Shown here: positions 9,075 through 23,000 of the stretch, piece after piece | How the letters are laid out: the number at the start of each line of letters is the position of its first letter | Position numbering within the stretch: position 1 is the first letter of the stretch | Source of the DNA: a virus | IMG/VR virus record: IMGVR_UViG_3300042507_001950 | Location: 1-38,450 of that record | Length of the DNA: 38,450 nt | Reading direction: 5' to 3' (one strand) | Position numbers and translations under genes: made by a program | The notes under the pieces: generated by a model | The model's database searches: none | Seen by the model: the letters and a program-made list of their open reading frames with translations, nothing else | What the model was told of the DNA's origin: nothing

Positions 9075-9395
9075 ATGGAGCAAGCAATATTATACCTACT
9101 ATACAGCCCAGAGCATAAGGCTATTAAGATAGGCATATCAGATATCTCAGGTAAAAGGTTTGCAAGCCACAGGACCAAGGGTTGGATCTTAATTAAGTAT
9201 TGGCATTTTTTTGAACGGTATAGGGCAAAAGAAGTAGAAACTATAGTACTAAGAACACTAAGGGATAGATACGGACACTATCTAACTAAAGAACAAATGC
9301 CTCATGGGGGATATACGGAGACATTTGATGCAAATAAAGTAACCAGGAGGATGTTGATCCGTATGGTCAATAAGGCAATAAAGGAGTGTTCGTAA
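9075..9395 (+). CDS. GIY-YIG / T5orf172-like nuclease
   Basis: 106 aa. Starts MEQAILYLLYSPEHKAIKIG, with KIGIS and a downstream FASHRTKGW basic strand, a helix with VETIVLRTLRD, and the terminal QMPHGGYTETF motif typical of T5orf172-type GIY-YIG domains. Probably a homing or mobile nuclease. It is the only plus-strand gene inside the minus block, which supports independent insertion. Leaderless start. Confidence 0.8.
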   Translation: MEQAILYLLYSPEHKAIKIGISDISGKRFASHRTKGWILIKYWHFFERYRAKEVETIVLRTLRDRYGHYLTKEQMPHGGYTETFDANKVTRRMLIRMVNKAIKECS

Positions 9396-9412: not shown

Positions 9413-9499
9413 TTATCCACCCATACGGATTTGTTGTAGATAAGCCATGTAGTTTAAGAATATAAACAGACCTAACATGATGATTAAAAAAGGTTTCAT
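9413..9499 (-). CDS. 28-aa single-TM micropeptide
   Basis: MKPFLIIMLGLFIFLNYMAY then LQQIRMGG. One TM helix. ATGA overlap with the upstream zinc-ribbon gene. Its stop codon lies inside a near-DnaA box TTATCCACC. Confidence 0.6.
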   Translation of the reverse strand: MKPFLIIMLGLFIFLNYMAYLQQIRMGG

Positions 9500-9618
9500 T
9501 TAAAGTCTTCCTCAAGGTTTACTGGTTGGATATCATCATCCATAGCCCCACAGACAGTACATGTTACCTGACCATCAAGGTCTAGTTCATAGTTACAACC
9601 ATATTTTGTACATGTCAT
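9496..9618 (-). CDS. 40-aa zinc-ribbon microprotein
   Basis: MTCTKYGCNYELDLDGQVTC then TVCGAMDDD. Two Cys pairs form a compact zinc ribbon, acidic C-terminus. The start lies 6 nt after TATCCT, matching the leaderless pattern weakly. Confidence 0.65.
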   Translation of the reverse strand: MTCTKYGCNYELDLDGQVTCTVCGAMDDDIQPVNLEEDFK

Positions 9619-9638
9619 ACATATAGGATATCACATAG

Positions 9639-9702
9639 TTATCCACATGTCAATACCGTGAAAATGTTAGTTATCCACAGGTTTATCCACAAGTTATCCA
9701 CA
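9639..9702 (+). other. Cluster of four perfect DnaA boxes
   Basis: TTATCCACA, the DnaA-box consensus, occurs at 9639-9647, 9671-9679, 9683-9691 and 9694-9702, all in the same orientation. The last three are 12 and 11 bp apart, about one helical turn, suited to cooperative DnaA binding. Confidence 0.8.
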
Positions 9703-10374
9703 ATTAAATGTTACTGATATTTTTTAGATTTATCCCAAAGTGGAGGAAAGTGGAGGATAGTGGTTTATGGAGCACTTTTATAGATGGCGTTCGTAATGTC
9801 GCACAGCGCCAAACCTCCTACCACAAAACCTCCACATTGTCAAACCTTCAAACCTTTATAGCGGATTATACTCCCAAACCTCACATTTGTCAAGTATATT
9901 TGATAACAATTTGATAACAAACCCCTATAAAAAACCTCTCAAAATGTGAGAAAAATGTAGAAAAACCTCTATAAAAATATATAAAGGTTTGATAAAATAT
10001 CTAAAATCCAGGGAAAAATATATGTCCTTCGTAATGTCTTTTATACTATAGGGTTTGGTATATCTTTTGATCCCCCGCTGCAGAATGTTTGATAGTATTA
10101 TGAATCATTGCAGGGCGGGGGATAAATAAAGAGAGTTCGTAATACCCCTATAGGAATAACAAACCATACATTCTGGTTTTTGGATATAGAGGTTTGACAG
10201 ATATGAGTTTATATGATATAAGGTTTGACAAACAAGGTTTGATATGCTAGAATCCTGGGAAATTTATATGTCGTTCGTAATCTTTTTTATTGGGATAAAG
10301 GTTTGTCGAAACCCTGCGAATTTTTTTAGAGGGTTCGTAATAAGGTTTGGTGTGTAAAAGGTTTTTCGAAAATC
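9703..10374. other. Gene-free AT-rich region with iterons, candidate replication origin
   Basis: No convincing gene on either strand. CAAACCT occurs four times between 9810 and 9881; its complement AGGTTTG occurs six times between 9985 and 10349 (9985, 10190, 10221, 10235, 10299, 10343). The heptamer thus flips strand near 9980. TTCGTAAT recurs at 9790, 10028, 10136, 10274 and 10334. With the adjoining DnaA boxes and cruciform this has the layout of a replication origin; copy spacing is irregular. Confidence 0.65.
10070..10123. repeat. Large GC-rich inverted repeat (cruciform)
   Basis: Arms ATCCCCCGCTGCAGAATG (10070-10087) and CATTGCAGGGCGGGGGAT (10106-10123) pair along most of their length with small bulges, loop 18 nt. 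Unusually GC-rich inside AT-rich DNA. Could be an origin cruciform or a bidirectional terminator. Confidence 0.7.
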
Positions 10375-18668: not shown

Positions 18669-18684
18669 TGTGATAAACCTCACA
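18669..18684. promoter_or_regulatory. Crp/GlxR-type site (TGTGA-N6-TCACA)
   Basis: Perfect palindrome, spacer TAAACC. About 138 bp upstream of the predicted start of promoter e, further than the other sites. A GAGACGCTCA motif is adjacent. Confidence 0.7.
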
Positions 18685-19787: not shown

Positions 19788-19913
19788 TTTATTTGCTAGG
19801 CTCATTGCCTTGTCTGTCCTTATTTAATTGTTATACTAGAAGTATAGCAAGGAAATGTCAAAAAGTCAAATCCTGACACGGCGTGTCGCATGTGAGTTAC
19901 ACCACATCTACCC

Positions 19914-22439: not shown

Positions 22440-22727
22440 ATGACAGCAACTGACTGGGCTCAATTTATTCTCGCTTTGCTTTCAATTGGCGCAATTATAG
22501 TTGGTGCGATTCGCTGGTATATAAAAGTTCAAATCAAGCCAATTGCCGAAGCAATAGAAGATATCCGTGCCGAAACTAAAACCAACGGCGGAACCTCCAT
22601 GCGTGATGAGATTAAGTTCATTAAACTTGAACAAGAAAATGCTAGAGAAAAGCGTAAGGCAACTAGTGATAAACTTGATCATATGTACGATATTCTTTTA
22701 GAGTATGTTTCTAAGAATTCTAAATAA
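22440..22727 (+). CDS. Holin-like membrane protein
   Basis: 95 aa from MTATDWAQFILALLSI; TATAAT 9 nt upstream makes the mRNA nearly leaderless. N-terminal TM helix (about residues 8-27), then a charged coiled coil (LEQENAREKRKATSDKLDHM). Matches actinophage small membrane proteins often proposed as holins; the lysozyme gene is far away at 31436, so the role is uncertain. Confidence 0.65.
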   Translation: MTATDWAQFILALLSIGAIIVGAIRWYIKVQIKPIAEAIEDIRAETKTNGGTSMRDEIKFIKLEQENAREKRKATSDKLDHMYDILLEYVSKNSK

Positions 22728-22936
22728 CTACTATATATAATATATAAGATATCTTTTAAAAACTTAACTATAGTATATTCTTTCTTATATATATTTAAGT
22801 ATACACCAAAAGTTCTTTGTTTTAACCTTTAATACCCTGGCTGATTATAACTCTTTGATAACAATTTAGAATATAACTTTTTGTTACCATATATATAACG
22901 TTTTGTTATATTTCTATGTGTACTGGTATAAATTAA
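22728..22936. repeat. AT-rich gap with ATAAC-TTTTT-GTTAT repeats
   Basis: No gene seen. Contains ATAACTTTTTGTTAC (22873-22887) and ATAACGTTTTGTTAT (22895-22909); a third copy is at 22041-22055. Each can form a small hairpin with a T-rich loop. Confidence 0.5.
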
Positions 22937-22945
22937 TGTTATAAT
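22937..22945 (+). promoter_or_regulatory. Extended -10 promoter (TGTTATAAT)
   Basis: TGT-TATAAT, pointing into the hairpin RNA at 22953. No gene starts directly after it. Confidence 0.55.
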
Positions 22946-22952
22946 GTGAAGG

Positions 22953-23000
22953 CTGGCACCCTAAGTTCTACCCCCACCCCACTGCGCTTAGGGTGTCCAG
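22953..23000 (+). ncRNA. Candidate structured small RNA or leader
   Basis: Long stem CTGGCACCCTAAG (22953-22965) against CTTAGGGTGTCCAG (22987-23000), loop of 21 nt with CCCCCACCCC. Lies between two extended -10 promoters, so it would be the 5' end of one transcript. The C-rich loop could pair with ribosome binding sites (inference). Confidence 0.5.

Follow-up and report, generated by a model that had tools for sequence, protein, structure and literature searches.

Iteron origins such as P1 oriR and those of RK2 and F carry DnaA boxes at one edge, an AT-rich stretch, repeats on the same strand and promoter-overlapping sites that serve autoregulation. At ori-lambda, which is activated by pR, a promoter runs through or beside the origin, direct repeats are provided for the phage initiator, and DnaA sites lie near the origin promoter (PMC3985674). 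The basal unwinding system of B. subtilis oriC combines DnaA-boxes 6/7 with DnaA-trios behind a short spacer, and published search rules for such bacterial unwinding modules ask for a box pair at most 3 bp apart, a gap of about 4 bp and at least three NAN on one strand (PMC8287927). RNA-based origins have been described for extrachromosomal prophages of temperate mycobacteriophages with parABS (PMC7157519). In Stanwilliamsviridae, non-coding regions with DnaA boxes and a largely same-strand TCGTAA array are found (Samisti12 122,612-123,946; BillNye ~119,170-119,790), for which the records carry no origin annotation. A literature search of partial coverage returned no described origin for large actinobacterial phages with DnaE-type polymerases, no DnaA-trio on a phage and no description of the region reported here.

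The stretch of DNA analysed (the window) is the 38,450-bp IMG/VR virus record IMGVR_UViG_3300042507_001950. Close relatives were assembled as circles of 105,008 bp (G001), 105,751 bp (G008) and 111,771 bp (G004) with end overlaps of 99-127 bp, and the window is therefore taken as a fragment of a phage of ~105-112 kb. The best isolate relatives of the DUF932 protein (48-52% amino acid identity) and of the DnaE polymerase (~55%) are Streptomyces phages of Stanwilliamsviridae. By sequence comparison, the window belongs to a large, mostly uncultured freshwater lineage that is distant kin (a sister lineage) of Stanwilliamsviridae, not a demonstrated member. Its host is probably a low-GC freshwater actinobacterium, judging from kinship and composition; a genome-wide pattern scan for a host or for oriC mimicry gave matches in seven unrelated bacteria and no host, and was discarded. 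A single cluster in G001 contains a weak helix-turn-helix match, a DnaB-type helicase, a DnaG-type primase, SSB, a PHP/DnaE polymerase, RecA and a RuvC-like resolvase, and the annotation of BillNye has the same gene order in its replication cluster. By similarity, a DnaE polymerase, a DnaB-like helicase, a DnaG-type primase and SSB are encoded by the phage lineage itself.

The region under study, roughly 750 bp long (9639 to 10374), had been put forward in a preliminary description as a candidate replication origin, an assignment now supported by its conservation and by the combination of DnaA boxes and TCGTAA repeats in 12/12 Stanwilliamsviridae isolates. We read it as a DnaA-assisted, transcription-activated phage replication origin, a candidate resting on comparative evidence, with a probability of roughly 0.75. 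Elements, their order, spacing and orientation, cluster number per circular genome, conservation and heptamer-promoter overlap were all computed here, and expected counts were taken from dinucleotide-shuffled sequence. Loci of relatives were collected with DUF932 and the neighbouring endonuclease VII as queries (105 loci) and counted where at least 5.5 kb lay downstream (n = 61). At least five AGGTTTG heptamers within 800 bp together with at least two DnaA boxes were found in 54/61 loci, 3.1-5.2 kb from DUF932 in nearly all of the 54; the reversed-sequence control with the same heptamer count gave 0 loci. For a set independent of the motifs to be counted, contigs were picked solely by TTATCCACA-N2/3-TTATCCACA-N8-TTACTGAT. 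All 80 dereplicated regions of this set had at least two TCGTAAT, 72 had an inward promoter and 56 had at least five exact heptamers. The order is fixed: DnaA box pair, AT-rich block, GTGGAG repeats, a promoter (P-left) firing into the block, and the TTCGTAAT array. In each of the three circular genomes (G001, G004, G008), a single heptamer/TTCGTAAT cluster was found. Not described earlier were the pair of divergent sigma-70 promoters, the GGGAAA half of the repeats, the GTGGAG repeats and a 40-aa ORF.

The four perfect DnaA boxes of the preliminary description (TTATCCACA, exact matches on the plus strand) are located at 9639..9647 (box 1), 9671..9679 (box 2), 9683..9691 (box 3) and 9694..9702 (box 4). 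They exceed chance, since TTATNCACA occurs 10 times in the window versus 3.1 expected, and 0/100 shuffles reach 10. Boxes 3 and 4 form a conserved adjacent pair, spaced by 2 bp in the window and by 2-3 bp in relatives, and thus within the 3 bp of the published rules; a box pair followed by TTACTG was present in 68/78 located regions. Among relatives, hardly any variation is seen in the pair and in the TTACTGAT/AT-rich element, and their flanks cannot be aligned. Absence of the boxes from relatives had been named beforehand as an argument against an origin; conservation was found. It is highly improbable that the site is a DnaA trap, which would titrate host DnaA and slow host replication: clustered high-affinity boxes would suit such a trap, but only 2-5 boxes per genome are present at the site, and their fixed register with the AT-rich element and the promoter is not needed for trapping.

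Behind the pair lies the AT-rich presumptive unwinding element ATTAA-ATG-TTA-CTG-ATA-TTT-TTT-AGATTTATCC (9703..9735, plus strand), which was compared in 49 dereplicated relatives and in which TTACTGAT is nearly invariant. In the window, its trinucleotides ATG-TTA-CTG-ATA-TTT-TTT (9708-9725) are six consecutive NTN, or NAN on the complement, and the T at every third position (9709, 9712, 9715, 9718, 9721 and 9724) matches the DnaA-trio on the complementary strand. Of the 49 relatives, 94-100% have T at positions 7, 10, 13, 16 and 19 counted from the box, and 73% at positions 22 and 25. The longest NTN run has a mean of 6.4 versus 3.5 in shuffles (shuffle maximum 4.0), with a shuffle that ignores kinship. 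Box pair, short gap and at least three NAN on the proper strand are all as in the published unwinding-module rules (PMC8287927), and the middle-T register is shared by CACCTACTACTATTACTACTATGA, published for Clostridioides (PMC7561715). As in B. subtilis oriC (PMC8287927), two boxes at most 3 bp apart are followed by a short spacer, and trinucleotides with a conserved middle base stand on the same side of the boxes. Unlike oriC, the module lies in a phage genome, its spacer is AT-rich (GC-rich in oriC), its trinucleotides are degenerate (ATG TTA CTG ATA TTT TTT), some relatives drop the boxes yet keep the rest, and dnaA and dnaN are not among the neighbours. Ten-bp repeats, GTGGAGGAAA-GTGGAGGATA-GTGG, follow at 9740..9763 (plus strand). 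They are present in most relatives, whose regions have the GTGGAG ten-bp repeats among their most strongly enriched words, and are a putative protein site.

Five loci from at least two lineages (L046, L050, L051, L081 and, separately, L078) are without perfect DnaA boxes and have kept the heptamer cluster, and thus provide a natural experiment on DnaA dependence. In the four of these loci that were read (L046, L051, L078 and L081), the TTACTGAT/AT-rich element, the GTGGAG repeats and TCGTAAT are intact despite the missing boxes; in L078, GGTTTGATAGGGTTTGATAGG stands in place of the box pair. Because these loci keep the AT-rich element and the downstream motifs, DnaA may be dispensable, and the element, which DnaA-trios alone do not explain, would have a role beyond DnaA. 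In L037, five DnaA boxes are kept and the heptamer has degenerated.

Five TTCGTAAT copies had been noted and were recovered on the plus strand, with one more at 9389. Copy 1 (9790..9797) is without a GGGAAA half. The next three belong to bipartite repeats, GGGAAAAATATATGTCCTTCGTAAT (10011..10035, TTCGTAAT at 10028), GGGATAAATAAAGAGAGTTCGTAAT (10119..10143, TTCGTAAT at 10136) and GGGAAATTTATATGTCGTTCGTAAT (10257..10281, TTCGTAAT at 10274), and copy 5 is at 10334..10341. The whole window contains nine copies versus 1.0 expected, every one on the plus strand. The complete repeat measures about 25 bp, with GGGAAAA upstream of TTCGTAAT at a start-to-start distance of 17-18 bp. In relatives, the array consists of 2-6 same-strand TCGTAAT copies, with a mode of 4; the majority of copies are preceded at 17-18 bp by GGGAAA, and across the 80 dereplicated regions TCGTAAT is oriented 337 times on the plus and 0 times on the minus strand. 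To the left of the region, an ORF at 9075-9395 (plus strand) with weak T5orf172 (GIY-YIG-like) similarity also ends in TTCGTAAT.

Two other readings of the motif were rejected. A genome-wide polar (KOPS-like) role of TCGTAA was dismissed, since beyond the cluster three genomes have only a weak strand bias (29:11, 30:16 and 35:19), which can reflect the direction of coding. TTCGTAA was also considered as a promoter half, and no conserved -10 or -35 context was found around it.

Several direct repeats of ~17-25 bp in the same orientation are a mark of iteron origins, and the region shares with P1 oriR, RK2 and F the box edge, the AT-rich stretch, the same-strand repeats and the promoter-overlapping sites. 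It differs from them in that no rep gene adjoins and the repeats are widely and irregularly spaced. The search for a phage initiator proposed earlier returned no initiator family adjoining the region and hence no initiator (Rep/O-like) gene linked to the repeats; a weak HTH_17 match lies in the helicase/primase cluster of G001, where the helix-turn-helix protein is encoded at 22,455-22,994 (phrog_9440).

For comparison with isolates, the corresponding sites of Stanwilliamsviridae were inspected. DNA similarity of the region to isolate phages was absent beyond the DnaA boxes. In 12/12 isolates, a DnaA-box site is accompanied within ~1 kb by a [TA]TCGTAA array whose copies are entirely or almost entirely on the same strand, and in Samistivirus a GGGAAA half stands at the same distance (GGGAAAAATAAGGAGCCTTCGTAA). 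The array lies to the right of the DnaA boxes in Boydwoodruffvirinae, as in the window, and to the left in Loccivirinae. In contrast to the window, the Streptomyces phage regions read contain no AGGTTTG array and no evident DnaA-trio. The motif is not restricted to origins across the family, since GAGATTTT-N-TTCGTAA and GTGAGATTTT-N-TTCGTAA are dispersed in BillNye (NC_042105), mostly just upstream of genes. Examples of the latter are found at 67226, 92140, 102176, 105455 and 113399, and resemble sequences associated with gene starts in cluster K mycobacteriophages. As a natural experiment, two satellites of related helpers were inspected, MiniFlayer and MulchRoom, which rely on these helpers and have no recognisable replication genes (PMC10690885); neither contains a DnaA-box plus TCGTAA array, which speaks against the origin reading.

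In Samisti12 (NC_042012), the boxes are at 122,951-122,995, the terminal repeat starts at 123,045 and the array spans 123,257-123,711. Here, and apparently in Yaboi (118726-119478), a physical genome end lies between boxes and array, and origin-like region and terminus coincide. This leaves room for a packaging role, in which the site would be a genome terminus recognised and cut by terminase: the 10.7-kb terminal repeat of Samisti12 begins ~50 bp away from the boxes and takes in the TCGTAA array close to its start, and in Yaboi this array appears both near base 230 and at about 119,050. Such proximity is not general, since the terminal repeat of BillNye starts 5.4 kb from its DnaA/TCGTAA region. 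DnaA boxes and strong promoters would also be unexpected at a packaging cut, and terminal repeats of the freshwater phages collapse in assembly, so that their assemblies do not place the ends. A packaging site is accordingly considered very unlikely, and the candidate origin remains the preferred reading.

Two predicted sigma-70 promoters diverge within the region. P-left (TTGACA-17-TATAAT, 12/12; 9865..9893, minus strand) points leftward through the unwinding element and the DnaA boxes and has an AGGTTTG in its spacer; P-right (TTGACA-17-TAGAAT, 11/12; 10225..10253, plus strand) is directed rightward, away from P-left. The predicted transcription starts of P-left and P-right are near 9858 and 10260. 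In 48/49 relatives, an inward promoter with at least 11/12 matches points at the AT-rich element (chance mean 0.3), from a distance of 138-202 bp in all but one, and an equivalent of P-right of at least 11/12 was found in 20/49 versus 0.7 expected. A promoter into or past the origin, as in transcription-activated origins of the ori-lambda type, is thus present in 48/49 relatives. The region further shares with ori-lambda (PMC3985674) direct repeats for a presumptive phage initiator and DnaA sites near the origin promoter. It differs in that it is not inside an initiator gene, its bipartite 25-mer is spread over ~550 bp, its DnaA box pair is strong and its promoters carry the AGGTTTG operator. 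With the RNA-based mycobacteriophage origins (PMC7157519) it has in common a short non-coding region implicated in actinobacteriophage replication, for which transcription is predicted here; in contrast to these, no partition genes were seen nearby and the phage has its own polymerase.

The heptamers all stand where they had been placed before, four as CAAACCT followed by six as AGGTTTG. The minus-strand copies start at 9810, 9841, 9849 and 9875 (9810..9881), the last inside P-left. On the plus strand, the first is at 9985..9991; three start at 10190, 10221 and 10235 (10190..10241), the last two overlapping the -35 and spacer of P-right; and the final two start at 10299 and 10343 (10299..10349). 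Of the 31 copies in the window (6.7 expected), 10 fall into a stretch of 540 bp. GGTTTG or CAAACC overlaps 47/48 inward promoters, compared with 42% for windows drawn at random from the same regions, and AGGTTTG lies over the spacer or the -35 element. The heptamer therefore looks like a repressor operator and not like an origin centre. A bidirectional start had been read from its strand flip; this was not upheld, as the heptamer tracks the promoters and points outward on both sides because these diverge. AGGTTTG was also rejected as main iteron: it is the most variable of the motifs, changes strand and goes with the promoters, and the Streptomyces phage regions read contain no array of it. 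The GC-skew check proposed earlier was negative: cumulative skew and fourfold-site skew both follow gene strand only, with no turning point at the locus, and thus give no support to the origin reading and show no bidirectional origin in composition.

These features raise the alternative that the region is mainly a transcription control hub, where a repressor reading AGGTTTG and, in addition, DnaA would regulate the divergent promoters and replication would not begin. Promoters with overlapping operators are indeed the most regular features, many relatives have a gene for a small hydrophobic protein (MSPRHFA...) in the region behind a heptamer-bearing promoter, DnaA box 1 is inside a promoter, and other DnaA boxes lie beside CRP-type sites elsewhere in the window. 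However, neither promoter of the window lineage has a recognised conserved gene close behind, and a hub leaves the strict DnaA pair with the three-base periodicity of the TTACTGAT/AT-rich element and the 337:0 orientation of TCGTAAT unexplained. We consider this alternative unlikely, and an origin the better account.

The promoter that contains box 1 in its -35/-10 spacer (9653-9625, minus strand) belongs to a 40-aa ORF at 9496..9618 (minus strand), which, as read from the sequence, is zinc-ribbon-like with Cys pairs (MTCTKYGCNYELDLDGQVTCTVCGAMDDD...), is apparently leaderless and gave no family match. In many relatives, a protein of 70-90 aa (M..[PR]HFA..., in many with a hydrophobic centre, GMLYSIVTLKAFFP) is encoded on the minus strand inside the homologous region, in several cases behind heptamer-bearing promoters (e.g. 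L024, L025, L009 and L053); it is missing from the window lineage. The stretch had been described as free of genes, which holds: the sole ORF of at least 60 aa between 9396 and 10374 (9708-9914, 68 aa) overlaps the repeats and was therefore judged spurious. The GC-rich imperfect inverted repeat is likewise present (10067..10126, arms 10067-10094 / 10099-10126) as a hairpin at a conserved position. In about two thirds of relatives its stem type is conserved at a fixed place and its loop varies. It was rejected as a standard terminator because it has no T-run; a terminator scan was empty, and an Rfam search of the region gave no match at E<=1.

Further DnaA boxes mentioned in the preliminary description exist and occur as pairs (18697/18718, 19914/19926 and 21020/21035). 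Exact TGTGA-N6-TCACA sites (CRP/GlxR type) number six in the window versus 0.13 expected (12772, 16193, 18669, 19772, 20916 and 21048). Those at 18669 and 21048, and one with a single mismatch at 19891, are less than 80 bp from DnaA boxes, a pairing also seen in relatives. This suggests, from the sequence, early phage operons that are read by host cAMP-type and DnaA regulators.

From these elements we infer origin activity and the following course of initiation. Host DnaA would bind the adjacent boxes (9683-9702) and, with the DnaA-trio-like AT-rich strand (9708-9725), melt the AT-rich element. A phage protein, plausibly the helix-turn-helix protein of the helicase/primase/SSB/DnaE cluster, would bind the 25-bp bipartite repeats (GGGAAAA-N-TTCGTAAT) as iterons and recruit the phage DnaB-like helicase and primase. 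Transcription by P-left from inside the array into the melted element may give topological help or a leading-strand primer, comparable to pR in the case of ori-lambda. Initiation would be timed by a repressor or autoregulated initiator, which would recognise AGGTTTG and shut P-left and P-right.

The candidate combines, unusually, an unwinding module of bacterial type with phage iterons and with a repressible promoter directed at the site of melting. Whether a lytic-type phage carries the opening module of a bacterial oriC (box pair plus DnaA-trio) in this form, with box-less lineages that appear to have switched to phage-only opening with the same element, is a tentative proposal to which we give somewhat less than even odds. 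The candidate is compact and bounded and comes with natural variants, in which the DnaA boxes are lost, the heptamer is degenerated or the array is on the other side, and the origin reading is testable in culturable Stanwilliamsviridae on Streptomyces. With the motif, origins can be sought in contigs of many uncultured freshwater phages. If the reading is true, a phage with a nearly complete replisome would still lean on host DnaA.
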